From Acidimicrobiales bacterium (GTDB lineage Bacteria; Actinomycetota; Acidimicrobiia; Acidimicrobiales; AC-14), in the NCBI GenBank assembly GCA_025463925.1, contig JAODBK010000046.1:1-64000 (forward strand): 64,000 nt of DNA. Direction: 5' to 3'. The notes beneath the pieces were generated by a model, which worked only from the letters and a program-made list of their open reading frames with translations, did no database searches and was not told the origin of the DNA. Both the position numbers and the translations under genes were made by a program. Each line of letters starts with the position of its first letter. Positions within the stretch are counted from its first letter, which is position 1. Shown piece after piece: positions 8,875 to 38,103 of this stretch.

Positions 8875-9687
8875 TCAGCGCTGTGAGCTGAGCGGCTTCC
8901 GGTCGTCGTGGTACAGAGACGTCGAGATTCGGCCCGCCGCCGCGACGACAGATTCGATGCAACGCTTCTTGCGCTCAGCGGTGATCCCGCTGCGTCGTGC
9001 CAGCGTGCTCAGCGCGGCAACGACCTTTCCGGTGTGGTCTCGCACCGGTGCGGCAACGGCCCACAGATCAGGATCCGTTTCACCTTCATTGATCGCATAG
9101 CCCCGGGATCGGACCTTGTCCAGGCTGGCCACGAAGGCCTTCTTGGTGATCGCGGCACCCGACAAGTAGGCCGGCCACGACGACGAGTCCGGCAACATCG
9201 ACGCGACTTCATCTGGTTCGCGCCACGCCAAGAGAACCCGTCCGCTCGCTCCACCCTCGAATGAGTTGTAGCGACGACCCGTCGGAGGATAGATCGACAA
9301 CTGGCTCAGGCTTTGGCGAATCGAGAGGTGCATCACCACCGTGCCGTCGAGAACGCTCAGGACCAGGGTCTCGTTTATTTCCTCGATGAGCGCGTCGAGC
9401 ACGGGGGTCGCAGCACGCACCAAGTCGTTCGTCGCGAGCGCGACGGACGCGAGGCGGACGACTTCGAGGTGCAATCGTTGCCGGCCGCTTGCCGGATCGG
9501 TGCTGAGGTAGCCGTGCTGCTCCAATGTGGCGACCAGGCGACGAACCGTGCTCGGCGCAAGTTGGAGATCCTTCGCGATGTCAGCGATCCGCCCGGTCGG
9601 GTGATCCAGGTTGAACCAGCTGAGGATCTTGAGCATTCGCTCCGCCGACCGAACCGGCGTCATTTCCTCCGACGACGCCTTTGTCAC
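8875..9687 (-). CDS. IclR-family transcriptional regulator
   Basis: The protein has 270 residues. An N-terminal winged helix (SAERMLKILSWF ... IADIAKDLQLAPSTVRRLVATLEQHGYL) is followed by the IclR effector-binding domain (SFEGGASGRVLLAWREPDEV ... AVAAPVRDHTGKVVAALS). I start it at the GTG at 9687, which has GGGAG 6 bases upstream; the open frame extends to 9819 but crosses the promoter of the divergent gene. It is the only transcription-factor gene in the 7.2-32.3 kb locus and lies between two copies of the shared operator. It is therefore the obvious candidate regulator of all six units. Whether it represses or activates cannot be read, although operators placed near the predicted start sites favour repression. 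Confidence 0.88.
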   Translation of the reverse strand: MTKASSEEMTPVRSAERMLKILSWFNLDHPTGRIADIAKDLQLAPSTVRRLVATLEQHGYLSTDPASGRQRLHLEVVRLASVALATNDLVRAATPVLDALIEEINETLVLSVLDGTVVMHLSIRQSLSQLSIYPPTGRRYNSFEGGASGRVLLAWREPDEVASMLPDSSSWPAYLSGAAITKKAFVASLDKVRSRGYAINEGETDPDLWAVAAPVRDHTGKVVAALSTLARRSGITAERKKRCIESVVAAAGRISTSLYHDDRKPLSSQR

Positions 9688-9736
9688 GGTGCTCCCTTCA
9701 TGGACGGGGCGCACCACCGCGCCACCTGCGAGCAGG

Positions 9737-9800
9737 TTGACATCCGGACCCCTTGACGTCGACGATGGGACAGTTAATGGTTTGGCAAGACAGTATATGG
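9737..9800 (+). promoter_or_regulatory. Promoter with shared operator, copy A (selenoprotein unit)
   Basis: TTGACA at 9737-9742 is a perfect -35 hexamer. The operator TAATGG (9775-9780), 13 bases, TATATGG (9794-9800) starts 38 bases after the start of TTGACA. The element ends 18 bases before the ATG at 9818, just ahead of the ribosome-binding site. It lies in the gap shared with the divergent IclR gene, so autoregulation is plausible. Confidence 0.72.
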
Positions 9801-9817
9801 CTAGGAGGATGAAGCCC

Positions 9818-10363
9818 ATGGCGTCGGTGAAGGTGTACTCCCCCCGGCCTGTTCAGTTCGCGGAACCTGAAGGCGAGGCCGTCGCCGCACCTGAACGGCA
9901 CTCCCTGGTGGGCGCCGTGGTCGGCATCGTCGACAACGGCAAGATGCTCAAGCTGGGCGAGGCGATCGAGCGCCGGCTTCTCGCACTGGGAGCGGCAGAG
10001 GTCCGCCGGTTCCGAGCGCCGCGCTACACGGATCTGGCGACGGCCGAGTTCCTCGACGACATCGCCGCCAACGTCGCGGGCGCGGTCACCGGTCTCGGCA
10101 ATTGAGGTAGCTGCACGGCGTGGAGTTGCCACGCCACAGTTGAACTGGCCCGCCGGGGGATCGCGGCGCCGACGTTGGTCATCGAGTCGTTCCGAGCTTG
10201 GGGAGAAGCGGCCACCAAGAGCTTCGGTGGCGGCATCGAAACCGTGTTCGTCCTCCGCGAGGACGTCGATTTCGTGACCGGTGATCCACTCCAGGCGGAG
10301 GCGGACCGGGTCGCCCGCGCCGTGCTCGGTCTGCCAATCAGTGAGGGCGCAACGCATGCTTGA
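9818..10363 (+). CDS. UGSC-family selenoprotein (in-frame TGA read as selenocysteine)
   Basis: The frame runs from the ATG at 9818 (AGGAGG at 9803-9808) to a TGA at 10103-10105. It continues in the same frame, without another stop, to the TGA at 10361-10363. Read through, the product has 181 residues with selenocysteine at position 96 in the sequence GLGN-U-G-S-C-TAWSCH. The part after the TGA looks like normal protein (TVELARRGIAAPTLVIESF, then DFVTGDPLQAEADRVARAVL). U-G-S-C is the signature of a selenoprotein family first predicted in marine metagenomes; its biochemistry is unknown to me. A stem-loop immediately after the TGA fits a bacterial SECIS. The stop overlaps the start of the next gene. 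Automatic annotation would give a 95-residue stump and a 62-residue orphan. The selenocysteine machinery (selA, selB, selC) is not in the window. Confidence 0.85.
10109..10141 (+). ncRNA. SECIS-like stem-loop directing selenocysteine insertion
   Basis: The inner stem GGCGTGG (10117-10123) pairs perfectly with CCACGCC (10129-10135) around the loop AGTTG, with G as the second loop base. A lower stem, AGCTG (10109-10113) with CAGTT (10137-10141), is separated by a small internal loop. The apical loop starts 18 bases after the TGA. Bacterial SECIS elements have a short apical loop with a G near its 5' side about 16-37 bases after the UGA, so both geometry and position fit. It lies inside the coding sequence, as in bacteria. 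Confidence 0.8.
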
Positions 10364-11378
10364 CGAACTCGATCTTCCCGAGGACCTGGCCGACGAGATG
10401 TTCTTCGAGCGTGGATGGACTGACGGTATGGCCGTGCGGCTGCCCACCACGGACCGCGTGGATGAGTTCATCGCACGATCGGGTCTCGATCGCGATCTCG
10501 TGATCGGACCGGTGCCGCCGTCGAACGGGATCGCCACGGTCGAGAACATCGCCGTGAACGCGCTGATGGCCGGTTGCCGACCTGAGCACCTGAAGATTGT
10601 CACTGCCGCAATGACGGCGATGCTTCAGGAGAAGTTCAACCTCTACGTGGTCCAATGCACCACGAATCCGGTAACGCCTCTCACGATCGTGAATGGACCC
10701 GCTCGCATCGACGGCGGAATGAATTTCGGTCGGGGGGCACTGGGCCCGGGCCGCCACTGGAACGGTGCTATCGGCCGGGCCGTTCGCCTGGCGATGGGCA
10801 ATCTCGGGGGCTCGTTCGACGAGAACGTCGATATGGCGACACATGGAAACCCGCTGAAGTTCAGCTGCTGCCTCGCTGAAGCGGAGGAAGAGAGCCCTTG
10901 GGATCCGCTTCATGTTGCGCTCGGTTACTCGCCGACCGACAGCGTGGTCACCACGGCTGCCGTCGAGGGGCTCATCGACATCGTTCCGTCCTACGGCAAC
11001 ACGCAGGCGAAGCATCTCATCGACCACATCGGACGCGCGATGCGCACCATCGGCACTTGCTACTACTGGTCGCAAGGAAACCCGGTCGTAATCCTGAATC
11101 CGACCCATGCACACATCCTCGACAACGAAGGCATCGGACGAGCGCAGCTGCAGGAGGTCCTCTTCCAGGAAGCTCGCGTCGCGCTCGACACCATGCCGCT
11201 CGGGAACATCCCGGTCGGCGACTGGAAAGTCGTCGACGAGCACGCACTGGGCTACGCGCGTCCCGAGGATCTCTACATCGTCGTCGCGGGCCAGACCGGT
11301 GGCCACCACACTCTTTACGCGATGGGCTTCGCGCTCAGCTACGCGACGAGCTCGATCGTCCCGTCTGCGATCGGTTGA
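10356..11378 (+). CDS. Conserved hypothetical protein paired with the UGSC selenoprotein
   Basis: This 340-residue soluble protein starts at ATG 10356, overlapping the last codons of the selenoprotein gene, so the two are translationally coupled. I do not recognise a named domain. Visible features are a Gly-rich stretch (NGPARIDGGMNFGRGALGPG), a Cys pair in KFSCCLAEAEEES, further single Cys residues (AGCRPEHL, VVQCTTNP, GTCYYW), a His-Asp rich segment (NPTHAHILDNEGIG) and a C-terminal GQTGGHHTLYAMGF. There is no signal peptide or membrane helix. The coupling suggests a complex or consecutive reactions with the selenoprotein, perhaps a redox reaction; that is inference. Confidence 0.8.
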   Translation: MLDELDLPEDLADEMFFERGWTDGMAVRLPTTDRVDEFIARSGLDRDLVIGPVPPSNGIATVENIAVNALMAGCRPEHLKIVTAAMTAMLQEKFNLYVVQCTTNPVTPLTIVNGPARIDGGMNFGRGALGPGRHWNGAIGRAVRLAMGNLGGSFDENVDMATHGNPLKFSCCLAEAEEESPWDPLHVALGYSPTDSVVTTAAVEGLIDIVPSYGNTQAKHLIDHIGRAMRTIGTCYYWSQGNPVVILNPTHAHILDNEGIGRAQLQEVLFQEARVALDTMPLGNIPVGDWKVVDEHALGYARPEDLYIVVAGQTGGHHTLYAMGFALSYATSSIVPSAIG

Positions 11379-11442: not shown

Positions 11443-11476
11443 ACTAGTACTCAGACGGCAGCCAGGGAGCGGCTTG

Positions 11477-12835
11477 ATGACGCGGAACTCCGTCAGGATC
11501 GGGTCCGGCAGCGCGGGCGCCATCGACCGCGTCGAGCTGGCCGTGGACATGGTCAGAGGTGGCGACGTCAAGTACCTCGCCTTGGACTGCCTGGCCGAGC
11601 GGACGCTGGCCCTTGCGCAATTGCGGAAATCGGCGGGGACCGGCCCCGGCTATGACCCACGAGTACCGGCGTTCGGCAAGCAGTTGCTCCCCTTGGCCCG
11701 CGAGCGAGGCGTCACCGTGATCGCCAACATGGGTGCCGCTGATCCGCATGGTGCGCTGGAGCATTTTCAAGAGCACGCGGACGCGTACGGCCTGCGAGGC
11801 CTCAAGGTCGCGGTCATCGACGGCGACGACGTGCTCGACCACCTCAAGCAAACCGATCCGGTTGTCATGGAGACGAACCGCCGGGTGTCGGAGCTGGCGA
11901 ACGGGATCGTGTCGGCGAACGCCTACATCGGTTATGAGCGGATCTTCGAGGCGCTGGCGGACGGGGCTGACCTCGTGATCGGCGGCCGTATCGCCGACAG
12001 CTCCCTGTTCCTCGCGCCGCTTGCGTACGAACTCGGTTGGGCGGCCGACGACTGGGACCGGCTGGCTGCCGGAACGTGCGTGGGCCACCTTCTCGAGTGC
12101 GGCACCTACGTCACCGGAGGAAACTTCGCGGACCCGCCATTCACGACCATCGACGATTTCGACAATCCGAGCCTGCCCATGGCAGATGTCTCGGCCGATG
12201 GCACGGCCGTGTTGCGCAAGCTCCCAGGTTCGGGCGGTCGCCTGGACACGCTCACGTGCAAGCTCCAGCTGGCCTACGAAGTGCACGACCCCACGCAGCA
12301 TCGCTCGCCGGATGTCATCTCGAATTTCGCCGGAATCGAGGTCAGCGACTCCGGCGATGGCGGGGTGGCGATTCGCGGGGCCACCGGCACGCCACGGCCG
12401 GAACAGCTGAAGGTCGTCGTCGGCGTCGCCGAAGGCTTCATCGGCGAGAATCAGATCTCGTACGCGGGCGCCGGCGCGCTCGACCGAGCGATGCTGGCGA
12501 AGGGCATCCTCGAGAGGCGCATCGGAGGCCTCGCGAGTGATCGCGACATCGAGGAATGGCGTGTCGACCTGCTGGGCGTCAACGCACTGCACGGCAACCG
12601 CTCGTCAGTATCGGTCGATGCGCCGCCGTACGAGGTCCACGTTCGGGGCGCGGCCCGCTGCGGCGATCGCCGTGCCGCTGAGGCTGTGGCCGCCGAGGTC
12701 GAGTACCTCATGCTCTGGGGGCCGGCCGGCGCGGCCGCCGGTCACCGCGCTCGAATCGCCCAGATCGTGTCGGCCTACAGCGCGTTCGTCGATCGGGACG
12801 ACGTCAGCACCCGGCTCACGATGTGCACGCTGTGA
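11477..12835 (+). CDS. atuA: AtuA-family (DUF1446) acyclic terpene utilisation protein
   Basis: The 452-residue protein is recognisable as AtuA/DUF1446 from its N-terminal VRIGSGSAGAIDRVELAVDM, the DGDDV segment, GLIxGGRxxDSSLFLAPLAYELGW-like region (VIGGRIADSSLFLAPLAYEL), ECGTYVTGGNFADPPF and the C-terminal domain with GAGALDRAML. AtuA is essential for citronellol/geraniol catabolism in Pseudomonas through an unclear step. The ATG at 11477 has AGGGAG seven bases upstream. It is the first gene of a ten-gene unit under operator B. In many genomes AtuA carries an additional C-terminal domain; here that domain is the next, separate gene. Confidence 0.85.
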   Translation: MTRNSVRIGSGSAGAIDRVELAVDMVRGGDVKYLALDCLAERTLALAQLRKSAGTGPGYDPRVPAFGKQLLPLARERGVTVIANMGAADPHGALEHFQEHADAYGLRGLKVAVIDGDDVLDHLKQTDPVVMETNRRVSELANGIVSANAYIGYERIFEALADGADLVIGGRIADSSLFLAPLAYELGWAADDWDRLAAGTCVGHLLECGTYVTGGNFADPPFTTIDDFDNPSLPMADVSADGTAVLRKLPGSGGRLDTLTCKLQLAYEVHDPTQHRSPDVISNFAGIEVSDSGDGGVAIRGATGTPRPEQLKVVVGVAEGFIGENQISYAGAGALDRAMLAKGILERRIGGLASDRDIEEWRVDLLGVNALHGNRSSVSVDAPPYEVHVRGAARCGDRRAAEAVAAEVEYLMLWGPAGAAAGHRARIAQIVSAYSAFVDRDDVSTRLTMCTL

Positions 12836-12846
12836 TGGGAGGGAAC

Positions 12847-13176
12847 GTGGCCGTCAAGCGCGTATCGGTGCGTGAGATCGCGTGCGCCCGTGCGGGAGAC
12901 AAGGGCGATGTGAGCAATGTGGTGGTCGTGCCCTACGAAGCGGCCGGCTACGAATTCCTCCGTGAGGAGCTTACGGTCGAGCGTGTGCGCGAGCACTTCG
13001 GGGAACTGGTGGTCGGCGACATCGTCCGCTACGAGTTGCCAGGCATCCAGACCCTCAATTTCGTGATGACGGGTGCGCTGGCCGGTGGCGTTACTCGTTC
13101 GATCTGGCTCGACGCGCATGGCAAGTCGCGCGCTTCGTTGATGTTGACGCTCGAGCTCGACGGCTGGCCGGCTTGA
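12847..13176 (+). CDS. AtuA-like C-terminal domain protein, encoded separately
   Basis: This 109-residue protein has the motif ACARAGDKGDVSNVVVVPY, the start of the domain that usually forms the C-terminus of AtuA-like proteins. GTG 12847 is preceded by GGAGGG. An ATG at 12835 overlapping the atuA stop is an alternative start that would add four residues. Separation from AtuA suggests the two polypeptides form one complex. Its role is unknown beyond this association. Confidence 0.82.
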   Translation: MAVKRVSVREIACARAGDKGDVSNVVVVPYEAAGYEFLREELTVERVREHFGELVVGDIVRYELPGIQTLNFVMTGALAGGVTRSIWLDAHGKSRASLMLTLELDGWPA

Positions 13177-13183
13177 GAGGGAG

Positions 13184-14395
13184 ATGACTGTGTCCGACTT
13201 CATGGCCACAACGCCCATTGTGGACAGCGACAGCCACGTCACTGAGCCGCCCGATCTGTGGACGTCGCGCGTCGCCAAGAAGTGGGGCGACGAGGTGCCT
13301 CACCTCGAGCTGGATGAGGCGATCGGGGAGATGCGCTGGCGGGTCGGGCAGACCACGCTGAACGAAGAGGCGAAGTTCACCATGGCGGGTTGGCGCGACT
13401 TCCCGCCGTCACATCCGCCCTCTCTGGCCGATGCCGACCCTGCCGGGTGGGACCCGACGGCCCGTCTCGAACGCATGGACGAGTACGGCATGTGGGCTCA
13501 GGTTCTGTACCCGAACATCATCGCATTCTCCACGCACGCCTTCCTCGGTATGAGCGATCCAAAGCTGGCGCTCGCGTGCGTGTCTGCCTACAACGACTTC
13601 CTCGCCGAGTTCGCCGACTGCGACCGGCAACGGTTGATCCCGATCATGATGTTGCCGTTCTGGGATGTCGAGGCCAGCTACGCCGAGCTCGAGCGGGCAA
13701 CCGACCTCGGCCACAAGGGCGTCATCTTCGCTGCCCACTTCGACAAGGTGGGCCTGCCTCCCATTTGGCATGACCACTGGAGTCGACTGCTTTCGATGGT
13801 CGAGGAACGCGGCCTCTCGGTGAACTTCCACATCGGGTTCTCGGACATGACGAAGGCGGAGCAGGCCGAGCGTACCGAGGCCAGCGGTGACGACCACGCG
13901 CGGATCACGAGCGTCGCCATGCTGGGCAACGCCCGCGCCATCGCTGATGTGATCTGCAAAGGCGTCTGCCATCGCCATCCCGGGCTCAACTTCGTCTCCG
14001 TCGAGAGCGGCGCAGGGTGGTTGCTCTACCTGTTGGAGTCCCTCGACTGGCATTGGAAGAGCTACGGGGGAATGCGCGATCGTCCCGAGCTCGAGCTACC
14101 GAGCGTCTACTTCCGCCGCCAGGTCTACGGTTCGTTTTGGTTCGAGGAAGAGTCACTCCGTCGAGTGATCGGCGCGCTCCCCGACAACATCATGTTCGAG
14201 ACGGACTTCCCGCACCCGACCAGCCTCTCGCCGGGCCCAGCCTCGAGCTCTGGGAACCCGCGGAAGATGGCGGAGGCGGCGCTCGCGGGCATGGACGAGA
14301 AAATCGTCCGGAAGGTGTTCTACGAGACGGCGGCCAGGCTGTACCACCTCGACGTGTCCTCGGCTCGGGCGCTGGTGACGTCGGCGGACAGTTGA
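13184..14395 (+). CDS. Amidohydrolase-family (PF04909-type) metal-dependent hydrolase, copy 1
   Basis: The protein has 403 residues with a TIM-barrel amidohydrolase-2 layout. An N-terminal metal loop (VDSDSHVTEP) is followed by central HIGFSD and HPGLNFVSVESG, and by the late Asp in ETDFPHPTSL. Members of this family (ACMSD and gamma-resorcylate decarboxylase relatives) perform hydrolysis or non-oxidative decarboxylation. The ATG follows GAGAGGGAG. A paralogue with the same start (DSHVTEPPDLWTSR) lies at 22606 in the third unit of the same regulon. The two probably handle related intermediates or formed by local duplication. Confidence 0.85.
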   Translation: MTVSDFMATTPIVDSDSHVTEPPDLWTSRVAKKWGDEVPHLELDEAIGEMRWRVGQTTLNEEAKFTMAGWRDFPPSHPPSLADADPAGWDPTARLERMDEYGMWAQVLYPNIIAFSTHAFLGMSDPKLALACVSAYNDFLAEFADCDRQRLIPIMMLPFWDVEASYAELERATDLGHKGVIFAAHFDKVGLPPIWHDHWSRLLSMVEERGLSVNFHIGFSDMTKAEQAERTEASGDDHARITSVAMLGNARAIADVICKGVCHRHPGLNFVSVESGAGWLLYLLESLDWHWKSYGGMRDRPELELPSVYFRRQVYGSFWFEEESLRRVIGALPDNIMFETDFPHPTSLSPGPASSSGNPRKMAEAALAGMDEKIVRKVFYETAARLYHLDVSSARALVTSADS

Positions 14396-14940
14396 ACGAG
14401 TCGGTGGTCGACGGCGTCGATGCGAGTGAAACGGATGCGTACGAAGCCGCCCGTCAGCACCTCATCGCAACCCGCGGCCAGGTCGCGCTGCCATTCGAGC
14501 TGTTGTTGCGAGTACCCCAGCTGTGCACGCGCGTCGCTGATCTCGGGGAGGTCATCCGGTTCCGAGGCCTGCTGCCTGACCGGCTGCGGGAGACGGCCAT
14601 TCTCGCGACAGCGCGTGAGGTCCGGTGCCGATACGAGTTCGACAGTCACCTGCCGATCGCCCGATCGGCCGGCGTTGCCGAGGCGACCATCGCGCTGGCC
14701 AGCGGGGCTGACGCCGACGCACCGGTGGACGAGTCACTCGTCGTGTCCTTCGTTCATGAACTGCTCCAGCGCCGGGAGGTTGGCGAGGCGACCCTCGTCG
14801 GCCTGGGTGCGGTGCTCTCGGAGCCCGAGCTCGTCGAGCTCTGTGTCACCGTCGGCTATTACGCGCTGCTCGCCGGCGTCGTCAACGTCTTCGCCGTCGA
14901 TCAGGCGGAGAACATGGATCAGGAAGGGGCAGGGCAATGA
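14392..14940 (+). CDS. Carboxymuconolactone decarboxylase-like (CMD fold) protein, copy 1
   Basis: The protein has 182 residues. The conserved core LRETAILATAREVRCRYEFDSHLPIARSAGV matches the CMD/AhpD superfamily, in which a Glu-xx-His pair acts at the active site. The CxxC of AhpD peroxidase-type members is absent. The TTG start at 14392 overlaps the stop of the amidohydrolase gene (TTGA); GTG 14404 is an alternative. A second CMD-like gene occurs at 25336. In this locus it may decarboxylate or isomerise a lactone- or ketoacid-type intermediate; that is inference. Confidence 0.72.
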   Translation: MNESVVDGVDASETDAYEAARQHLIATRGQVALPFELLLRVPQLCTRVADLGEVIRFRGLLPDRLRETAILATAREVRCRYEFDSHLPIARSAGVAEATIALASGADADAPVDESLVVSFVHELLQRREVGEATLVGLGAVLSEPELVELCVTVGYYALLAGVVNVFAVDQAENMDQEGAGQ

Positions 14941-15218
14941 CGGAACCGCAGGACGCGGGCGATCCGCCCTCTTCGGCCGCTCTGACGTCGATCGCAGCGT
15001 CGTTGCGCGCCGACGGCTACCGCATGCACGTCAGCGAACCGCAACCATCTCGGGTGCGGGTCATGGTTGAAGCACTCCCAGACGCATGCGAGGAATGTCT
15101 CGTTCCCAAGGCGATCATGACTTCGATCATCGAGAGCGCCTTGGAGGGCGCTGGCATCGCACCGTCGGTCGTCGAACTCCTGTATCCCGGCGAACGTGCG
15201 GAGGTGGCGGATGCCTGA
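14937..15218 (+). CDS. Small conserved-looking hypothetical protein
   Basis: This 93-residue protein starts at an ATG overlapping the preceding stop (ATGA). The sequence has a compact alpha/beta look: ALTSIAASLRADGYRMHVSE, then RVRVMVEALPDACEECLVPK with a CEEC motif, then a helix IIESALEGAGI. The CxxC could bind metal or be redox-active. The next gene's ATG lies inside its 3' end. I do not recognise a family. Tight coupling to the CMD-like and CoA-transferase genes supports a role in the pathway. Confidence 0.7.
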   Translation: MTEPQDAGDPPSSAALTSIAASLRADGYRMHVSEPQPSRVRVMVEALPDACEECLVPKAIMTSIIESALEGAGIAPSVVELLYPGERAEVADA

Positions 15219-16422
15219 TCTGGGCGTTCTCCCCGATGCCGCCTTTCACGGGCTGAAGGTCGTCGAGATCGCGCAGCTGATCGCCGGACCGTTGTCGGGC
15301 AGCCTGCTCGCGGATCTCGGCGCCGACGTGGTCCATGTGGAGGATCCCGGCTCCGGCGATCCGCACCGTGCGACCGGTGTCGACAAGGACGGCGTCCATC
15401 TCTGGTGGAAGGTGTCGGGGCGCAACAAGCGATCAGTGACGCTGGATCTGCGCAGCGAAGAAGGGCAGGAGATCGCGCGGCGACTCGTCCGGTGGGCTGA
15501 CGTTGTCATTACCAACTTCCGGCCAGAGACACTCGAGAACTGGAAAATGGACTGGCCCAGTCTCCACGAGGTGAACCCGAAGCTGATCATGCTGCAGGTC
15601 ACCGGCTTCGGCGCCAACAGCAGCCGCCGAAACAGTCGGGGTTACGGCAAGGTCGGCGAGGCGATGAGTGGCGTCGTGTATCTCACCGGCTTTCCGGACG
15701 GCCCGCCGGTCCACACCGGCTTCTCACATGCTGACTCGACCACCGGCTTGTTCGGGGCCTTCGCGATCGCGGCCGCTCTCTTCCGTCGTTCGACCGACCC
15801 GGACTTTCAGGGCGAGTGGATCGACATGGCGTTGTTCGAGGCCTTGTACCGCCTTTGCGAGTGGCAGGTGACGATGTATGACCAGCTCGGTGTCGTGCCG
15901 ACACGGGCCGGCAACCAGTTGGCCAACGCCCCAGCGGCGGTGGTCAACACCTACCTCTCGGTCGACGACCAGTGGGTGACCGTGACGACGGGAACTGCAA
16001 AGGCGGTGCTCGACGTGGCCAAGCTGCTGGGCGAACCGGTTGAGGACTACGACAGCACCCAAAAGCAGAACGACCGCCGCGATCGGTTGGATGAGCTCCT
16101 CCGCCAGTTCGTCGCCGAGCGCACATGCGACGATGCCCTGGAAACGATGCGCAAAACCGGAGTCGTGGCATCCCGCATTTACAACGTCGAGGACATCCTC
16201 GCCGACCAGACGTACGCCGAGCGAGAAGAGATCGTTGTGGTTGACGACTCGGACCTCGGCCCAGTGCGCATGCCGGCGGCCCTGCCCAAGATGGCGAATC
16301 ACGGCGGGCAGGTGTGGCGAAGCGGTCCGAAGCTCGGAGAGGACAACGACCTCGTCTACAAGAGCTACCTCGGGCTGACGGACGAGGAGTACGAGGCGTT
16401 GCAGAAGGACTCGGTCATCTAG
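15211..16422 (+). CDS. CaiB/BaiF-type (family III) CoA-transferase
   Basis: The protein has 403 residues. Family III features are GLKVVEIAQLIAGPLSGSLLADLGADVVHVEDP at the N-terminus, the KRSVTLDL segment, and the catalytic Asp in HADSTTGLFGAFAIAAALF. These enzymes move CoA between carboxylic acids through an aspartyl-CoA intermediate. The ATG at 15211 has GAGG seven bases upstream and overlaps the previous gene by eight bases. It likely activates a carboxylic acid intermediate so that the DUF35/thiolase-like and crotonase-like enzymes can act. Confidence 0.85.
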   Translation: MPDLGVLPDAAFHGLKVVEIAQLIAGPLSGSLLADLGADVVHVEDPGSGDPHRATGVDKDGVHLWWKVSGRNKRSVTLDLRSEEGQEIARRLVRWADVVITNFRPETLENWKMDWPSLHEVNPKLIMLQVTGFGANSSRRNSRGYGKVGEAMSGVVYLTGFPDGPPVHTGFSHADSTTGLFGAFAIAAALFRRSTDPDFQGEWIDMALFEALYRLCEWQVTMYDQLGVVPTRAGNQLANAPAAVVNTYLSVDDQWVTVTTGTAKAVLDVAKLLGEPVEDYDSTQKQNDRRDRLDELLRQFVAERTCDDALETMRKTGVVASRIYNVEDILADQTYAEREEIVVVDDSDLGPVRMPAALPKMANHGGQVWRSGPKLGEDNDLVYKSYLGLTDEEYEALQKDSVI

Positions 16423-16442: not shown

Positions 16443-17174
16443 TTGGATCTTCAACTGCGTGGCAAGAGGGCCCTCGTCACTGGCGGGAGCCGGGGGATCG
16501 GCCGGGCAACCGCGCGAGGATTCGGATTCGAGGGGTGCGCGGTCGCGCTGTGCGCTCGCAGCGGCGACGAGCTGGCGATCGCGACATCCGAGCTCGCACG
16601 AGAGACCGGAGCGAAATTCGTCGGCATTCCGTGCGACACCCACGACGACGACTCGATCCGTGCCTTTGTCACCGCGGCCGCCGCAGAACTCGGTGGTGTC
16701 GACATCCTCGTGAACGCGGCCGCCCGCGTCGGCGGCACCGCGCCCGAGGACTTCGACTCCGTCAGTGACGCCCTCCTGATGGGGGACTTCGAGGAGAAGG
16801 CGGTGGGCTACTTCCGGTGCTCGCGCGCCGTCGTGCCGTACATGCGCAACGAAGGGTGGGGTCGCATCGTCAACATTGCGGGCTTGTCGGCACGGCGACC
16901 GGGGTCGGCCATGAGCACGCCGGCGCGGAACGCGGCTGTGGTGGCTATGACGATCGCCATGGCGAACTCGCTCGGGCGCTATGGCATCGGGGTCAATGCG
17001 GTTCACCCAGGCCGAACGATGACAGAATCGGTCGGGGAGCGCCTGCCAGAAGGTACGGCGACCACACGGTTCGTCTCGCCCGATGAAGTGGCGAGCGTGG
17101 TGATCTTCCTGAGCTCACCGCCCGCGGCGGGCATCTCGGGTGAGGCGATCGCGGTCACGCGGGAATCGGCGTGA
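16443..17174 (+). CDS. Short-chain dehydrogenase-like protein lacking the catalytic Tyr-Lys pair
   Basis: This 243-residue Rossmann protein starts at a TTG (16443). The cofactor motif TGGSRGIG and the NAA motif (LVNAAARVGG) are intact. However, the segment that should read YxxxK is STPARNAAVVAM, so the Tyr and Lys needed for classical SDR hydride transfer are Thr and Asn. The Ser region (NIAGLSARRPG) is present. It may bind NAD(P)(H) without classical dehydrogenase chemistry, or catalyse another reaction. Its stop overlaps the start of the DUF35 gene. Confidence 0.8.
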   Translation: MDLQLRGKRALVTGGSRGIGRATARGFGFEGCAVALCARSGDELAIATSELARETGAKFVGIPCDTHDDDSIRAFVTAAAAELGGVDILVNAAARVGGTAPEDFDSVSDALLMGDFEEKAVGYFRCSRAVVPYMRNEGWGRIVNIAGLSARRPGSAMSTPARNAAVVAMTIAMANSLGRYGIGVNAVHPGRTMTESVGERLPEGTATTRFVSPDEVASVVIFLSSPPAAGISGEAIAVTRESA

Positions 17175-17620
17175 ACGGGATCACCGACGCCGCGGTGTTC
17201 GAATCGTTTCCGGGCGTGGCGATCGACCACGACAACATCGAGCATTACCGCGGGATCCTGCAACGTCGGCTGCTCGTCAACCGATGCGCCGACTGTGGGA
17301 CGTGGCACGAGCCCGCCCGGTCGCGCTGCCCGGCGTGCTGGTCCACCCGGGTCGAGCCCACGAAGATCAGTGGCCGGGGCGTCATCGCCCTCTTCACGGT
17401 CCTGCATCATGGTCCCCCCGCGACGGGCATCGACTACCAAGAGGGGCATCCCGTCGCGGCCGTCGAACTCGCCGAGCAGCCGGGCCTGCGCTTTACCGCG
17501 ACCATCGTCGACTGCAAGCGCGAGACTTTGCGCATCGGGCTGCCGGTTGAACTGACTTGGATCGAGCGAGTCGGTGTGCCGGTACCGGCTTTTCGCCCGG
17601 CCGAACCCCGAAACGCATGA
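17171..17620 (+). CDS. DUF35-type OB-fold/zinc-ribbon protein, acyl-CoA-binding partner of the thiolase-like gene
   Basis: The protein has 149 residues: an N-terminal helix, a zinc ribbon CADCGTWHEPARSRCPAC (two CxxC pairs), then an OB-fold (GRGVIALFTVLHHGPP ... AAVELAEQPGLRF). Such proteins form complexes with thiolase-like proteins such as the Ltp2 steroid-side-chain retro-aldolase, where they bind the acyl-CoA. GTG 17171 overlaps the SDR stop, and the stop overlaps the thiolase-like ATG, which fits a stoichiometric complex. Confidence 0.83.
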   Translation: MNGITDAAVFESFPGVAIDHDNIEHYRGILQRRLLVNRCADCGTWHEPARSRCPACWSTRVEPTKISGRGVIALFTVLHHGPPATGIDYQEGHPVAAVELAEQPGLRFTATIVDCKRETLRIGLPVELTWIERVGVPVPAFRPAEPRNA

Positions 17621-18780
17621 CGCTTCCGATCAAGGATCGGGTGGCCATTGCCGGATTGGGGTCTACGCCGTTCTCTCGCGACGCCGGCCGGGCCGCCGGC
17701 GCGATGGTGCTCGACGCCTGCGTCGGTGCCGTTCGCGATGCCGGTCTCACCGCGAGCGACATCGATGGCTTGTGCGGCTCGAACGTCGTACCGGCCAGAT
17801 ACGTGCAGGGCGCGCTCGGCATTCCGGAGTGCACCTGGCACGCCAACCTCACCATTCCTTTCCAGCACCAGATCATCGAGTCCATGAACGCCATCCACGC
17901 CGGCATGTGCTCAACGGTGCTGGCGTACCACGGCGTCTACCGTGCCTCGGGCACATCTCGCGCAGCATCCGCCGACCCGTTTCGCGCGCGCTACGGCGCC
18001 GGTCCGAACGTGCTCTTCCAGACGCCCGACACCTTCGAAGGCGCGGTGGGACATTCCCCGTGGGCCCGGCGGTACCTGGACAAGTACGGGGTCGGACGCG
18101 AAGTCTTCGGAAAGGTCGCCATCAATAATCGGTCCAATGCCGTCCTGAACGAGCGGGCTGCCATGCGGCAGCCGCTCACGATGGAGGACTATCTGTCGGC
18201 GCGCCTCGTGCGCGAACCGCTGACGCTCTATGACATGGACCTTCCGGTCGACGGCGCTGACGCCTTCATCATCACCAGCGCGGAGCGAGCCCGTGACCTG
18301 CCTCACCGTCCGGTGCTGATCCACGCCGCTGCCCTCGGGCAGAATGACCGGCCGTTCTCTGCACAGATGCTCGACGTCGATTGCACTGGCCAGCAGATCG
18401 CGATTCGACAGCTGTGGCGTCATAGCGACGTGCGACTCGGGGATGTCGACGTCTTCTTCCCGTACGACGGCTTCTCCATCATCACCGTGCGGTGGTTCGA
18501 GACCGCTGGGTACTGTGACGACGGCGAGGCGAACGCGTTCTTCGACGCGCACTGGGAGACGTCCACCGACCGGATCCTCATCGACGGACGCGTCGCGGTG
18601 AATACGCATGGCGGCAGCATGTCCGAGGGTGCGACGCAGGGATCCGGTCACTTCCGCGAAGCGGCGGCGCAGCTGCGCGGCGAGGCAGGCGTTCGACAGG
18701 TTCCCAACGCAAAGCACGCGTTGGTGACGCCTGGCGGATTCTTCTTCAATGCCGGGGCTGTGATGCTCCGTACCGAGTAG
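17617..18780 (+). CDS. Thiolase-superfamily (SCP2-thiolase/Ltp2-like) protein
   Basis: The protein has 387 residues with the thiolase fold (VAIAGLGSTPFSRDAGRAAGAMVLDACVGAVRDAGL at the N-terminus). The usual nucleophilic Cys in the first half is not evident, and the C-terminal segment reads VNTHGGSMSEGATQGSGHF, the non-condensing Ltp2/lipid-transfer type. Together with the DUF35 protein it most likely performs a retro-aldol or other acyl-CoA C-C cleavage rather than thiolysis. The ATG at 17617 overlaps the preceding stop. Confidence 0.8.
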   Translation: MTLPIKDRVAIAGLGSTPFSRDAGRAAGAMVLDACVGAVRDAGLTASDIDGLCGSNVVPARYVQGALGIPECTWHANLTIPFQHQIIESMNAIHAGMCSTVLAYHGVYRASGTSRAASADPFRARYGAGPNVLFQTPDTFEGAVGHSPWARRYLDKYGVGREVFGKVAINNRSNAVLNERAAMRQPLTMEDYLSARLVREPLTLYDMDLPVDGADAFIITSAERARDLPHRPVLIHAAALGQNDRPFSAQMLDVDCTGQQIAIRQLWRHSDVRLGDVDVFFPYDGFSIITVRWFETAGYCDDGEANAFFDAHWETSTDRILIDGRVAVNTHGGSMSEGATQGSGHFREAAAQLRGEAGVRQVPNAKHALVTPGGFFFNAGAVMLRTE

Positions 18781-18809
18781 GACGACTTCGGTCCCACAAA
18801 GGGAGAAAT

Positions 18810-19580
18810 GTGCCGCCGATCTTCGACGAATACTCGACACGTTATGAGCATGTCGCCATGCGCCGCGATGCCGACGGCATTCTCGAGCTGCGCTTGCACA
18901 CCGCCGGCGGCCCTCTCATTTGGGGCGCCGGGCCGCACACCGAGCTCGGTTACGCGTTCACTGACGTCGGCAGTGATCCCGAAAATCGGGTCGTGATCCT
19001 GACCGGTACCGGTGACCGATTTATCGCTGCCATCGATTCAACGTGGATCGGACCGATGTCGCCCAAGAAATGGGACACGATCTACGCGCACGGAAAGCGG
19101 TTGCTCCAACGGTTGCTCGACATCGAAGTGCCTGTCATCGGCGCCGTCAACGGGCCCGCAAGCGTGCACGCGGAGCTGGCGGTGTTGTCTGACATCGTCC
19201 TCGCCGCCGATCACGCGTACTTCTCCGATGCGCCGCATTTCCGACGCGGGACGGTGCCCGGCGACGGTGTCCACGTGGTCTGGCCCCTTCTGCTCGGGCC
19301 GAATCGTGGTCGGTACTTCCTCCTCACCGGCCAACGGCTGTCGTCGGCGGACGCCGCAGAGCTCGGAGTCGTGAGCGAAGTGTTGCCGGCGGACCGACTT
19401 CTCGACCGTGCCTGGGAACTCGCTCGGCAACTGTCGGCCCAGCCCGATACGACGCTTCGGTACACGCGTGAAGCCGTGACACTGCCGATCAAGCGGCTCC
19501 TGCTCGACAACCTCGGGTACGGCCTCGCGCTCGAAGGGCTGGGCGCATATGCCTCGTGGCCGACGACCTCCGGATCCTGA
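18810..19580 (+). CDS. Crotonase-family retro-Claisenase, 6-oxocamphor-hydrolase-like
   Basis: The 256-residue protein closely follows 6-oxocamphor hydrolase (OCH), a crotonase that cleaves the C-C bond of cyclic beta-diketones. Shared segments are VVILTGTGDRF, LLDIEVPVIGAVNGP, LSDIVLAA, PHFRRGTVPGDGVHVVWP and NRGRYFLLTGQ. From memory, the OCH active-site residues are Trp40, His45, His122, His145, Asp154 and Glu244. Here W38, H43, H120, H143, D152 and E242 occupy the same positions with a constant offset of two. GTG 18810 has AGGGAG upstream. It is the last gene of the AtuA unit and the best clue to a cyclic beta-diketone intermediate. Confidence 0.82.
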   Translation: MPPIFDEYSTRYEHVAMRRDADGILELRLHTAGGPLIWGAGPHTELGYAFTDVGSDPENRVVILTGTGDRFIAAIDSTWIGPMSPKKWDTIYAHGKRLLQRLLDIEVPVIGAVNGPASVHAELAVLSDIVLAADHAYFSDAPHFRRGTVPGDGVHVVWPLLLGPNRGRYFLLTGQRLSSADAAELGVVSEVLPADRLLDRAWELARQLSAQPDTTLRYTREAVTLPIKRLLLDNLGYGLALEGLGAYASWPTTSGS

Positions 19581-19709: not shown

Positions 19710-20603
19710 GTGTCGATCGAGTACCGCCGGTCGGTCGAGAAGCGAAGGCGCGCCTCTGGCCGCGCAATGCGTGCGCCGCGGTCGGCGGACCCCTCGCAAA
19801 GCGTCGCTCCCGATCAGCTGATGCCCTCTGCCATGCGCGTGTCGGTCGATGGCGTGACCCACGCCTTCCGCGTCGGCAAGCCGGTTCTCGCGGATGTCTC
19901 GCTCGACGTCAAAAAGGGTGAGTTCGTCTCGATCGTTGGACCGAGCGGCGGCGGAAAGAGCACCTTGCTGAACATCGTGGCCGGTGTCCTCCAACCGGCG
20001 CAGGGCCGGGTTCTCTACAACGGCACCGAGATTCATGCGCCGAACCGCGAGGTCGGCTATGTGACGCAGGCAGACCGGCTCTTGTACTGGAGAACGGTCG
20101 AGCAGAACGTGCGTCTGCCCTTGCAGTTCCGCGGAGTACGAAAGGACGCGGCGGCCGAGTCCGTCGCACGGGTGATCAAACTGGTTGGCCTGGAAGGGTA
20201 TGAGCGGTACTACCCGAGCCAGTTGTCGGGGGGTATGCGCCAACGTGTCAACCTCGCTCGCAGCCTCGTCTACGAGCCTGACACGCTCCTGATGGACGAA
20301 CCGTTCGGCAGCCTCGATGCGTATCTCCGCGTCCGCATGCAGAAGGAACTGTCAGACATCGTGGAGCGACTCGCGCCGACGGTTGTGTTCGTGACGCATG
20401 ACCTGTCGGAAGCCGTAGCGCTCTCTGATCGGATCCTCGTTCTCAGCGGGCGACCGGCGCGGGTGACGTCGACCGTGGAGGTTGACATCCCACGGCCGCG
20501 AGACGTGATCGCGGTGCGCTCATCCGAGGAGATGCGCGAGTTGCTCGGGGTCCTGTGGTCTGCCGTCGAGTTGGGTTATGACACCGAAGAGAGAGAGAGC
20601 TGA
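19710..20603 (+). CDS. ABC transporter ATP-binding protein, NitT/TauT type
   Basis: The protein has 297 residues from GTG 19710, which has GGAAGG upstream; an ATG near 19831 is an alternative that would remove a 40-residue Arg-rich N-terminal tail. Walker A GPSGGGKS, the Q-loop (VTQADRL), signature LSGGMRQR, Walker B LLMDEP and the H-loop VTHDLSEAV are all intact. It resembles SsuB/TauB, which drive uptake of sulfonates, nitrate or small organic molecules. It is followed by its binding lipoprotein and its permease. Confidence 0.85.
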   Translation: MSIEYRRSVEKRRRASGRAMRAPRSADPSQSVAPDQLMPSAMRVSVDGVTHAFRVGKPVLADVSLDVKKGEFVSIVGPSGGGKSTLLNIVAGVLQPAQGRVLYNGTEIHAPNREVGYVTQADRLLYWRTVEQNVRLPLQFRGVRKDAAAESVARVIKLVGLEGYERYYPSQLSGGMRQRVNLARSLVYEPDTLLMDEPFGSLDAYLRVRMQKELSDIVERLAPTVVFVTHDLSEAVALSDRILVLSGRPARVTSTVEVDIPRPRDVIAVRSSEEMRELLGVLWSAVELGYDTEERES

Positions 20604-20604
20604 C

Positions 20605-21726
20605 ATGCAAGAACGCGGGTGGAGAGAGCATCGCAGTCGGTCACGATGGTCGGTCGCGCTCGCGGTCGTCCTGTTGGCTATGGCCCTTGCCGCATGCGGG
20701 TCCAGCAAGTCCAAAATCGCCGCTCCCAACGCGACGACCGGACCGGCCACGACGCTCCAGCCCGTGAGCATCAAGATGGTCATCGGTCAGTCGACGCCGC
20801 CGCTCTACCCGATTTACATCGCGCAGGACAAGGGTTTCTTCGCCAAGTTTGGTTTGAAGGTCGACGTCTCGATCGCCGGTAGCGACGCACTCGGCCTGGC
20901 CCAGTTGGTGAGCGGCAATGCAGATGTCGCTGACATGGGCACCTCGACCCTTGTGATTGCCAAGGCGACCCAAGGCACCTCGTTGGTGTCGGCGATGTCG
21001 CCGTACTCCGGCCCGGGCCTGTTCACCGTGCTGAGGAAGCCGGTTGCCGACAAGCTGGGCGTCGCCGCAGACGGGCCGCTCGACGCGCGGGTGAAGGCCC
21101 TCAAGGGATTGGCCATCGCCGTGCCGAGCAAGGCCAGCGCGTTGACCACGGTGCTCGACAAGGTCACCAGTGCGGCCGGCGTGTCGTACAAGCAGGTCAT
21201 CATGCAGGCGCCGGCGATGATCGCAGCCTTCCAGCGTGGCGACATCGATGGGGTTCAGATGGTGTCGCCGGTCGTGGAGACGGCAATCCAGAAGAACGGC
21301 GGCGTGATGTGGCTGAACGGGCTCAAGGGTGACATGGCCGTCGGTGGCGTCACCGAGACCTACCCCTTCATGTCGGTCACGATTCCCCGGACGTACCTCG
21401 ACAAGAACTCGGATGCCGCCGTCCGGCTTACCGCAGCGCTGCTCTACACGTCGGAATGGATCAAGAACAATGCGACCGACGCCGAGGCGACGGCGAAGGC
21501 TCGTTGGGGCGCGACGATCGGCGATCTGTGGGACCAGGTCTGGGCAAACAACTACCCCGGCTACATCAAGCAGCCGGTTCCGTCCGATTCCGGCCTCAAG
21601 CAGATCATCGCCACCTTGCCTAGCGACGTGGTGTCGGCCGACAAGGCGGCACGCCTGACCGCCACGGAGTTCCTCGACACCAGCCTTCTCGACAAGGCGA
21701 AGAAGTTGGCTGCGGACACCAAGTGA
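20605..21726 (+). CDS. ABC transporter substrate-binding lipoprotein, NitT/TauT (NMT1/SsuA) type
   Basis: This 373-residue lipoprotein has a signal peptide ending in the lipobox LAAC (MALAACGSSKS). The binding fold has the family hallmark PPLYPIYIAQDKGFFAKFGL followed by GNADVADMGTSTLVIA. It captures the substrate outside the membrane for the adjacent NBD and permease. ATG 20605 follows a GA-rich stretch (GAGAGAGAGAG). A strong hairpin follows the stop, before the permease gene. Confidence 0.87.
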   Translation: MQERGWREHRSRSRWSVALAVVLLAMALAACGSSKSKIAAPNATTGPATTLQPVSIKMVIGQSTPPLYPIYIAQDKGFFAKFGLKVDVSIAGSDALGLAQLVSGNADVADMGTSTLVIAKATQGTSLVSAMSPYSGPGLFTVLRKPVADKLGVAADGPLDARVKALKGLAIAVPSKASALTTVLDKVTSAAGVSYKQVIMQAPAMIAAFQRGDIDGVQMVSPVVETAIQKNGGVMWLNGLKGDMAVGGVTETYPFMSVTIPRTYLDKNSDAAVRLTAALLYTSEWIKNNATDAEATAKARWGATIGDLWDQVWANNYPGYIKQPVPSDSGLKQIIATLPSDVVSADKAARLTATEFLDTSLLDKAKKLAADTK

Positions 21727-21747
21727 CGGATCGAGTACTCGTGGCCC

Positions 21748-21773
21748 GCCCGGGAGCAGTGCAGCTCCCGGGC
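21748..21773 (+). other. Intra-operon hairpin after the binding-protein gene
   Basis: GCCCGGGAGC (21748-21757) pairs perfectly with GCTCCCGGGC (21764-21773) around AGTGCA. It has no T-run and lies between the lipoprotein and permease genes, a position where hairpins commonly stabilise the upstream mRNA to give excess binding protein. Confidence 0.65.
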
Positions 21774-21796
21774 CGTCACGGCGGGGCAGGAGCGCA

Positions 21797-22600
21797 GTGA
21801 GCGCAACCGAAAGTGCCGGGCGGCGACGCTACCGCTTCATCATCTCGCAGATCATCGTTTGGACGGTCCTTCTCGGACTCTGGCAGCTCTCGACGTACCT
21901 CTTCGATTCCCAGAACAACACGAGCGGACCGACCCTCGTCGCCCGACGAGTCGTGAAGTGGCAGCGAGATGGTGTTCTTTGGTCGGCGACCTGGTACACG
22001 CTGAAGGCGACCCTGTTCGGTTTCGGTTTCGGCACGGTGGGCGGAGCCGTCAGCGGCTTCGTCCTGGGTCGGAGCCGACGCCTCGGGCCGTTGCTCAACC
22101 CGGTCGCGATCGCTCTCTACTCCGTTCCGAAGATCACCCTCGGGCCACTGTTTGTGATCTGGTTCGGCATTGGCCTTCAGATGAAGACGATGATGGCCGC
22201 ATCGCTCGTCTTCTTCTTCGTGTTCTTCACGACTTACAACGGTACGAGACGGATTGATGAAGATCTCGTATTGCACGCCCGCATCATGGGAGCGAGCAAG
22301 TTCCAAATCCTGCGGCGCATCGTCCTTCCGCAAGCGGCCGTTTGGGTGTTCACCGGGATTCGCTTGTCGCTCCCGTACGCCCTGATCGGCGCCGTCGTCG
22401 GAGAATTCATCGCCTCGACCGATGGATTGGGCTACCTCGCCAACACGTCAAGTCAGGTCTTCGACACCACCGGGGTGTTCACCGCTCTGACGGTCCTCAC
22501 CGTGCTGGCGCTGCTGCTCAACGGCGTTGTCATGATCTTCGAGCGTCTGCTCATGCCGTGGGAGTCGCGAGAAGAGTCACTTCCCGTGCCCGCGGCCTGA
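21797..22600 (+). CDS. ABC transporter permease, NitT/TauT type
   Basis: The 267-residue protein has about six membrane helices. The cytoplasmic coupling motif EDLVLHARIMGASKFQILRRIVLP is the EAA loop of BPD_transp_1 permeases, and the core pattern VPKITLGPLFVIWFGIGLQMK is typical of SsuC/TauC. GTG 21797 follows AGGAGC. Only one permease gene is present, so it should act as a homodimer. Confidence 0.87.
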   Translation: MSATESAGRRRYRFIISQIIVWTVLLGLWQLSTYLFDSQNNTSGPTLVARRVVKWQRDGVLWSATWYTLKATLFGFGFGTVGGAVSGFVLGRSRRLGPLLNPVAIALYSVPKITLGPLFVIWFGIGLQMKTMMAASLVFFFVFFTTYNGTRRIDEDLVLHARIMGASKFQILRRIVLPQAAVWVFTGIRLSLPYALIGAVVGEFIASTDGLGYLANTSSQVFDTTGVFTALTVLTVLALLLNGVVMIFERLLMPWESREESLPVPAA

Positions 22601-22605
22601 TCGCA

Positions 22606-23769
22606 ATGGCGCTCGTCGACGAAATTCCGGTCATCGACTGCGACAGCCATGTCACGGAGCCGCCCGACTTGTGGACCTCACGTCTGTCGGGGCGTTGGCG
22701 AGATGGCGTCCCGCATGTCATCTGGGACGAGCGACTGAACGAACACCGGTGGCTGGTCGGTGATCGGAAGCTCAACGGCGTGGCCTCGTTCGCGATGGCC
22801 GGGTGGCACGAGTATTCGCCGGCCCACCCCCCGTCACTCGAGGAGGCAGACCCGGGCGCCCATGACCCGCGGGCGCGGCTGAGCCGGCTCGACGAGTACG
22901 GGGTCCACGCGCAGGTCATCTACCCCAACCTGTTGGGCTTCTACGTGCCGGCCTTCCTCGATCTCGAGCCTGCGCTCGCACTCGACTGCGTGCGGGCCTA
23001 CAACGACTTCCTCGCTGAGTTCTGCTCAGTTGATCCGAAACGTCTCGTCCCGCTGATGTTCCTGCCGTTCTGGGACCTCGATGCCTCGCTTGCGGAGATG
23101 AAGCGAGCGCTCGACCTCGGTCACAAGGGCCTCGTGTTCGGGGTCGACTTCGCGAAGGTCGGCCTCCCACCGATCACCGACCCCACGTGGGACCCCCTGC
23201 TGTCGGCTGCCGAGGATGCCGAGCTTTCGATCAACTTCCACATCGGGTTCAGCCAAGTCACCGAAGACGAGCTCAGGTCGCAGATCCGCCTACAGGACCG
23301 CGTGGAGTTCGTGAAGAACAGCGCGTTGATGATGCTCGGCAATGCCCGAGCGGTCGCCGATGTCGTGACATCAGACATCTGCGCGCGCCACCCCGGGCTG
23401 AACTTCGTTTCCGTCGAGAGCGGCTGTGGTTGGCTGCTGTTCCTGCTCGAGGCGCTCGACTGGCAGTGGGAGAACACCGGGGCGCATCTCGCCTTTCCCG
23501 AGCGTGAATTTCCGAGCGTGTACTTCCGGCGCCAGGTCTACGGCTCGTTCTGGTTCGAACGTGACTCCATGCGTCGAACGATCGGGGCCCTGCCTGACAA
23601 CGTGATGTTCGAGACCGACTTTCCGCATCCGACGAGCTTGTGCCCCGGGCCGGCGTCTTCCGCCGAGAACCCACGAGACGCGATCGAGCGCGCGCTCGGT
23701 GACCTGCCGCGAGACGTGGTGCAGAAGGTGCTTCACGACACCGCGGCCCGCCTGTACCACTTGGAATGA
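22606..23769 (+). CDS. Amidohydrolase-family metal-dependent hydrolase, copy 2
   Basis: The protein has 387 residues and is a clear paralogue of the gene at 13184. It has the same metal loop (DCDSHVTEPPDLWTSR), the same HIGFS and HPGLNFVSVESG segments, and an identical block VYFRRQVYGSFWFE followed by ETDFPHPTSL. ATG 22606 lies five bases after the permease stop. It is embedded in the transport unit, whereas copy 1 is in the AtuA unit. The two may act on free and activated forms or on stereoisomers; that is inference. Confidence 0.86.
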   Translation: MALVDEIPVIDCDSHVTEPPDLWTSRLSGRWRDGVPHVIWDERLNEHRWLVGDRKLNGVASFAMAGWHEYSPAHPPSLEEADPGAHDPRARLSRLDEYGVHAQVIYPNLLGFYVPAFLDLEPALALDCVRAYNDFLAEFCSVDPKRLVPLMFLPFWDLDASLAEMKRALDLGHKGLVFGVDFAKVGLPPITDPTWDPLLSAAEDAELSINFHIGFSQVTEDELRSQIRLQDRVEFVKNSALMMLGNARAVADVVTSDICARHPGLNFVSVESGCGWLLFLLEALDWQWENTGAHLAFPEREFPSVYFRRQVYGSFWFERDSMRRTIGALPDNVMFETDFPHPTSLCPGPASSAENPRDAIERALGDLPRDVVQKVLHDTAARLYHLE

Positions 23770-23791
23770 CCGCAGCCGCGAAGGTGCGTCG

Positions 23792-25339: not shown

Positions 25340-25920
25340 GCGAGGCGAGAGTCCGGCGCTTGAGTCAAGCGGACGCCCTTGCCGCGGCGGAAGCGGCAGG
25401 GATTCCCGGGGCGGCGGCGAACCTCAGCTCCTTCCGGGTCCTGCTCCGACATCCTGGTCTCGCTCGAGTCATGAACGATCTCCTCGCGCTGCTCGCGCGC
25501 GACGCGCGGCTGGACTCGCGGTTGCGGGAGCTCGCGATCATGCGGATCGGCTGGCTCACGGAATCGGACTACGAGTGGACCCAGCATTGGCGTATCGCGC
25601 GCAAGCTCGGCGTGCCCGACGACGATCTCCTCGGGGTTCGGGACTGGAAGGCCTACGCCGGCTTCGGGCCGGCAGAGCGCGCCGTGCTCATGGCGGCCGA
25701 CGAGCTCGTGGTGGATGGTTCCATCACGGCCACGACATTTGGGGAATGCAGCGAAGCCTTGCAGGACGACGAGCTTGTCCTGCTCGAGCTGGTAGCCACC
25801 CTCAGCACGTGGCGGATGATCGCTTCGATTCTTCAGAGCCTCGATGTACCGCTCGAGGAAGGGGTCGACAGCTGGCCGCCGGACGGCCGCAGCCCTGCAG
25901 ATGTGAGCGTCGCCAACTGA
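25336..25920 (+). CDS. Carboxymuconolactone decarboxylase-like (CMD fold) protein, copy 2
   Basis: The protein has 194 residues. The core LRELAIMRIGWLTESDYEWTQHWRIARKLGV is the CMD signature with the YEWxxH pair and no CxxC, so it is not an AhpD-type peroxidase. GTG 25336 overlaps the ligase stop (GTGA). It ends the third unit of the regulon and is followed by a strong hairpin. It is a distant relative of the protein at 14392. Confidence 0.8.
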   Translation: MSEARVRRLSQADALAAAEAAGIPGAAANLSSFRVLLRHPGLARVMNDLLALLARDARLDSRLRELAIMRIGWLTESDYEWTQHWRIARKLGVPDDDLLGVRDWKAYAGFGPAERAVLMAADELVVDGSITATTFGECSEALQDDELVLLELVATLSTWRMIASILQSLDVPLEEGVDSWPPDGRSPADVSVAN

Positions 25921-25970
25921 CGCTTCCAGTCGCCGAGCCGGCTGTTTCCCCTGGGCCGGCCGACGAGGAG

Positions 25971-25997: not shown

Positions 25998-26014
25998 TGA
26001 TCCGAGCTGGCGAG

Positions 26015-36339: not shown

Positions 36340-38103
<1,764 letters not shown>

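Follow-up and report, generated by a model that had tools for sequence, protein, structure and literature searches.

The window, that is, the whole stretch of 64,000 nucleotides of DNA that was analysed, contains a probable UGSC-family selenoprotein gene, which is followed on the same strand by a partner gene and a series of catabolic and uptake genes. A gene for an IclR-type regulator lies on the opposite strand. The features of the locus are as follows.

8875 to 9819, minus strand: divergent IclR-type regulator, with a listed ORF start that is too early
9803 to 9808, plus strand: AGGAGG ribosome-binding site, read directly, 9 nt upstream of ATG 9818
9818 to 10363, plus strand: probable UGSC-family selenoprotein gene, 181 residues, Sec96 in the UGSC motif, stop 10361-10363 included
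10103 to 10105, plus strand: in-frame TGA, probable selenocysteine (Sec) at residue 96, assigned from the Sec/Cys column of the homologue alignment
10117 to 10135, plus strand: SECIS-like hairpin of the bacterial type, with a 7-bp stem and the loop AGUUG (10124-10128) placed 18 nt past the UGA
10356 to 11378, plus strand: near-obligate partner gene, 340 aa, no Pfam/NCBIfam family, ATG overlapping the UGSC stop
11474 to 12835, plus strand: AtuA (PF07287) protein
12823 to 13176, plus strand: AtuA ferredoxin-like domain protein (PF23544)
13184 to 14395, plus strand: amidohydrolase-2 family protein (PF04909)
14404 to 14940, plus strand: carboxymuconolactone decarboxylase/AhpD-like protein (PF02627)
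15196 to 16422, plus strand: CoA-transferase family III (PF02515)
16443 to 19580, plus strand: short-chain dehydrogenase, ChsH2-like OB-fold/zinc ribbon, thiolase-like protein, and enoyl-CoA hydratase
20578 to 29177, plus strand: NMT1-like solute-binding protein, AMP-binding acyl-CoA ligase, and ABC ATPase and permease, the apparent remainder of the catabolic/uptake cluster

An earlier note on this DNA had read 9818-10363 as one protein frame that stays open through TGA 10103-10105, carries the signature U-G-S-C at Sec96, and overlaps the start of the next gene with its stop. All three points are borne out. Translation of 9818-10360 with TGA as U yields 181 residues with the motif GLGNUGSCTAWS (GNUGSCTAW at residues 94-102), in which U is residue 96, and the Pfam UGSC match spans the TGA. 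The gene ends at TGA 10361-10363, and this end is overlapped by the partner ATG at 10356-10358; the partner coding frame is 10356-11375. GC3 is high on either side of TGA 10103-10105, at 0.83 before and 0.75 after. In-frame ATGs are also present at 9797 and 9809, both of them poorly spaced from the AGGAGG.

The window protein is a divergent new member of the known, uncharacterised UGSC family. UGSC is among the most abundant environmental selenoprotein families and contributes 255 sequences to the Global Ocean Sampling set (PMC2398784). The Pfam model PF24696 (UGSC) finds residues 11-170 with 85.9 bits (cut-off 25) and an E value of 4.7e-24; the match covers model positions 5-167 of 172 and runs across the TGA. 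Membership was assigned on a score above the curated cut-off over most of the model, together with a UGSC motif with Sec or Cys, and the family assignment made earlier holds over the full length. Against the NCBIfam equivalog NF041046, the protein scores 46.3 bits, below the curated cut-off of 125, so that it is placed under PF24696 and would be left unnamed by NCBI's rule. A paralogue on contig C56 of the same assembly reaches 158.1 bits with this model. The window gene resembles the family (PF24696/NF041046; GOS 'UGSC-containing protein') in its whole-length match, Sec motif, hairpin, and adjacent partner, but differs from most members in lying on a divergent branch, with 23-30% identity. 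Naming rules now in use miss such divergent members, and annotation splits them. The prediction that gene callers would split these genes is confirmed in Paracoccus ferrooxidans (CP038202), where two 'hypothetical proteins' flank the TGA. This gene is located on plasmid pFER4 (L219:6372-6941), with the break at the Sec TGA, and selB is found ~4.4 kb downstream on the same plasmid.

A UGSC search in 60 related genomes gave 57 matches, spread over 27 of the genomes, and almost every match has a single in-frame TGA. Four such copies belong to the assembly from which the window comes. Throughout the alignment (34-35 members), the Sec column holds either Sec or Cys, and G97 and C99 are invariant. 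Cys forms are few among the relatives (in genome G028 and in a fusion in G021). The earlier note had called for both halves of the frame to be aligned to the family, and both align to homologues. It had named homologues that end at this position as counter-evidence; none do, as their frames read through the TGA or have Cys. The Pfam match across the TGA and the recurrence of this single TGA among relatives both greatly exceed what chance would give. On this comparison of sequences, 9818-10363 almost certainly encodes a full-length UGSC selenoprotein in which UGA 10103-10105 is read as Sec.

By the standard code the ORF closes at this TGA, and a 95-residue product is expected without Sec insertion. 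If the TGA were a true stop, the gene would have decayed or been sequenced wrongly, or there would be two small ORFs independent of each other. This is very improbable, since homology is unbroken across the TGA, the same TGA occurs in nearly all relatives, and only Sec or Cys stands at this position in 35 aligned members. In addition, the coding signal persists past the TGA, and the hairpin is under selection in Sec forms. Homology by itself shows merely that the frame is read through, which would also fit a full-length product with a non-Sec residue, inserted by suppression or under a TGA-reassigned code. The chance of this is slighter still: the replacement seen in homologues is Cys, as Sec would lead one to expect; the assembly contains tRNA-Sec and SelB; and TGA terminates other genes of the window normally, as well as the UGSC gene itself (10361-10363).

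The hairpin after the TGA had been likened to bacterial SECIS elements, and its stem, loop, and spacing are as described; as evidence taken alone, it is weak. Positions 10117-10123 pair with 10129-10135 (GGCGTGG/CCACGCC) around the loop AGTTG, with 11 nt from the TGA to the stem and 18 nt to the loop. Bacterial SECIS elements were defined by an apical loop ~16-37 nt after the UGA with G/U at the loop start, and the window hairpin has this form (loop +18, AGUUG). Among 3,491 codon positions of ORFs nearby, 44 have an equally strong hairpin at the same offset. When the same 15 codons are recoded synonymously, 1,765 of 20,000 recodings (~9%) match the window hairpin, so that the hairpin alone proves little in a single sequence. 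Its use as stand-alone proof of Sec was rejected on this ground. An Rfam scan of 9700-10500 with E values up to 1 gave no match; thus, no Rfam model covers the hairpin.

Across the Sec-type UGSC relatives, the hairpin is strongly selected, and it has largely disappeared from Cys forms. Synonymous recodings were compared with 88 Sec-type members, whose hairpins, with the loop 17-20 nt downstream of the UGA, outperform the recoded sequences at a median p of 0.016 (Fisher combined p 8e-58, which ignores relatedness). The loop lies at +19 in 76 of the 88 and starts with GU in 69. The hairpin is mostly absent from seven Cys forms (median p 0.41), one of which may not be a family member. The Cys-type UGSC gene of the archaeon Natrialba asiatica (L187, near 4641) retains a 7-bp SECIS-like hairpin at +18, which looks like the relic of a bacterial Sec gene recently converted to Cys.

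The ribosome would read UGA 10103-10105 as Sec by using SelB, tRNA-Sec, and the hairpin 10117-10135. The earlier note had proposed a search of the genome for selA, selB, selC, and selD, and all four are found in the assembly. The tRNA-Sec gene is on contig C54 (68 bits, cut-off 47, anticodon TCA), and SelB on C95 and SelD on C2 are both above their cut-offs. SelA is split into two pieces, one at an end of C29 and the other at an end of C95, as a contig break within the gene would leave it. Among the 60 genomes, tRNA-Sec is present in 23 of 25 with TGA-type UGSC versus 18 of 35 others (Fisher p 7e-4); the two genomes that have TGA-type UGSC and show no tRNA-Sec are 84% and 96% complete.

The window contig (C63) may come from elsewhere. 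Its GC content is 0.64-0.68 versus 0.69-0.76 in other sampled stretches of the bin, and its tetranucleotide correlation is lower than theirs. LeuA at 36340-38010 is of a form that is missing from all nine genomes of the same family and is 75% identical to LeuA of G022, a genome of another family. The bin, with an estimated contamination of 3%, also holds a family-type LeuA on C107. Because GC and LeuA type misfit the bin and the family, C63 is probably mis-binned or a large acquired region, and the Sec machinery may consequently belong to another genome of the bin. This doubt weakens only the step that places machinery and gene in one cell, and the evidence for Sec from comparison does not depend on that step.

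The gene that follows encodes a protein of 340 residues, with which Pfam and NCBIfam were searched without a match. D23, G24, C74, N136, R141, and E175 are invariant or near-invariant among its relatives, and C172 is conserved in 87 of 93. The partner search in the 60 genomes found matches beside essentially every UGSC match, and each paralogue has its own partner in genomes with 4 to 10 copies. A scan of 84,980 species gave at least 567 partner relatives. The best 80 of these came from Betaproteobacteria, Chloroflexota, Rokubacteria, Acidimicrobiia, Deltaproteobacteria, an archaeon, and others. At 75 of these 80 loci, found through the partner alone, a UGSC gene lies within the 5 kb flanks, usually adjoining. 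The order of the two genes varies (UGSC first in 73, partner first in 43), and the median gap is 99 nt, measured between profile matches. The UGSC and partner trees correlate: r is 0.79 when 116 pairs are compared and 0.73 for seven paralogue pairs of one genome. In four genomes (G036, G048, G050, and G021) and in Sporomusa, the two are a single polypeptide. Direct comparison of UGSC with the partner showed no homology between them, and a PDB sequence search gave no match for either. Judging from near-obligate adjacency and fusions, UGSC and the 340-residue partner very likely work as one two-subunit enzyme.

A domain called 'Unknown_1', with a conserved Cys, was described in 2008 as fused to UGSC-containing proteins (PMC2398784). 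The partner is probably the same domain, because it is likewise fused to UGSC in several genomes; the comparison is by the published description. Unlike the rare fusion with Unknown_1 (PMC2398784), the partner in the window is a separate gene, and it stands beside nearly every UGSC gene. No statement of this near-obligate pairing was found in the accessible literature. The partner, together with the reductase link and the acid-catabolism context described below, is new beyond the first reading of the locus. One fusion, on plasmid pSPTER of Sporomusa termitida (L222:6305-8029), has Met in place of Sec/Cys (GDMGTSS), so that there must be relatives that function with neither Sec nor Cys. This Met-type fusion adjoins an FAD oxidoreductase and belongs to a branch that lost the redox residue.

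UGSC-partner pairs sit in clusters for CoA-linked acid catabolism. Recurring neighbours at the 80 loci are TctC (29), MmgE/PrpD (10), and CoA-transferase III (10), followed by enoyl-CoA hydratase and acyl-CoA dehydrogenase (7 each), although some ORFs in these groups may have been called wrongly. An operon of fixed composition that extends past the pair was considered and rejected, as the neighbours differ between genomes. In the window, the helix-turn-helix of the IclR-type regulator begins at residue 58 of the listed ORF. The listed start is therefore too early, which leaves a divergent promoter region at ~9650-9800. A trxB gene is directly beside the Cys-type UGSC gene in Roseovarius THAF8 and within the same cluster in Variovorax SRS16 (L223:8766-9746 and L220:4077-5024). 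Its closeness to Cys-type genes hints at an electron donor; of about 100 further loci, only 4 have trxB-like genes nearby.

The structure of UGSC was predicted with a pLDDT of 87.7. The model has five alternating strand-helix units, and Sec96 opens the helix after strand 3. UGSC is thus predicted to be an alpha/beta domain of the flavodoxin/Rossmann type with a Cys three residues after Sec. The fold search gave only generic flavodoxin/Rossmann-like matches (best E 1e-3). The top match, with Z 11.9, is a chain of the methyl-coenzyme M reductase activation complex, and LarB (Z 10.8, rmsd 2.9, 120 aligned) and PurE (Z about 10) are also among the matches. The lists contain no thioredoxin chain and no reductase Sec subunit, although the absence of thioredoxin from such a list is no proof against that fold. 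A thioredoxin-like fold and a redox function have been suggested for UGSC, which was grouped with thioredoxin-fold families (PMC2398784); the model does not favour this fold. For the partner, the fold search gave no convincing match (best E 1.3e-3 at TM 0.29; best Z 7.2 over 91 residues), and the matches to its predicted fold are within the range of chance arrangements.

Profile comparison supports a distant relationship between the Sec region of UGSC and the Sec subunits GrdB/PrdB. With hhalign, UGSC and PrdB-like Sec proteins of the same order align with a probability of 94.4% and a score of 55, and their Sec and Cys positions coincide. Masking of the invariant Cys/Sec columns leaves a score of 45, and none of the controls (reversed and column-shuffled alignments, plus twelve unrelated ones) exceeds 25.5. 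Comparison with GrdB scores 33. A paralogue on contig C112 of the same assembly matches the NCBIfam glycine reductase selenoprotein B over the Sec region (E 6.6e-4). The window protein itself gave only PF24696 in hmmscan, with no direct match to PF07355 (GrdB/PrdB), and UGSC appears to be a distant relative of PF07355 rather than a member. GrdB/PrdB (PF07355, TIGR01917/TIGR01918) and the PrdB-like proteins share with UGSC the position of Sec after a beta strand at the helix start and a downstream 'LExAGIPT' stretch; the short PrdB-like selenoproteins also share UxxC. The N-terminal domains that GrdB has are missing from UGSC proteins. The partner resembles no known reductase subunit (no Pfam/NCBIfam match, no clear structural match), and no similarity was found between it and the pyruvoyl subunit of the GrdB/PrdB reductases. 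Loci L092-L111 of the same order encode full GrdB and many short PrdB-like selenoproteins with the motif UPVCHQ.

In glycine and D-proline reductases, one subunit holds the substrate while the Sec subunit attacks it, and thiol systems supply the electrons. By analogy, the most likely reading of UGSC and its partner is a reductive enzyme that may work like the Sec subunit of these reductases, a tentative assignment held at somewhat under even odds. The partner would hold the substrate for attack by the selenolate, the UxxC pair would form a selenenyl sulfide, and the re-reduction of this bond would fall to a donor of the thioredoxin-reductase type. In the window, the role would be the breakdown of a CoA-activated organic acid under the IclR regulator. 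We infer the complex formation, the chemistry, and the electron donor. The explanation as a whole, which combines selenoprotein, partner complex, and reductase, is given a probability of roughly 0.55. The dedicated partner and the likeness to known selenoenzymes turn a family with no assigned function into a testable case.

The UxxC motif, the grouping with thioredoxin-fold families (PMC2398784), and the trxB neighbours in two genomes would also suit a thiol-redox helper, such as a peroxide/disulfide reductase or an electron carrier, that serves the partner and the catabolic enzymes instead of attacking a substrate. This is near the published guess of a thioredoxin-like redox protein (PMC2398784). 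We regard it as unlikely, yet as a serious competitor. The model shows a doubly wound sheet of the flavodoxin/Rossmann type with best matches of the same type, the Sec region matches reductase Sec subunits, and a general helper does not need one dedicated partner per paralogue. LarB and PurE among the structural matches, the acid-catabolism context, and the Sporomusa fusion without Sec/Cys point in another direction, to a substrate-binding or lyase-type enzyme (LarB/PurE-like or racemase-like) with Sec/Cys as a nucleophile and no net redox. Alpha/beta matches at such Z values are common, and the strong preference for Sec and the invariant resolving Cys99 speak for redox chemistry, which makes such an enzyme a distinctly poor prospect.

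On the reductase reading, a wider picture can be drawn, although it is doubtful in its full extent. UGSC and its partner may represent a widespread, undescribed class of selenium-dependent reductases with two subunits, which would be a distant offshoot of the Sec domain of glycine/D-proline reductase. This class would serve largely aerobic bacteria and, in a Cys form, haloarchaea in breaking down organic acids taken up by TctC/TRAP/ABC systems. An unusual expansion of the family is seen in G021, of the same order, which has up to ten UGSC copies in a 3.4 Mb genome (contigs C13, C29, C53, C64, C83, C112, C146, C224, and C277), nearly all with their own partner.
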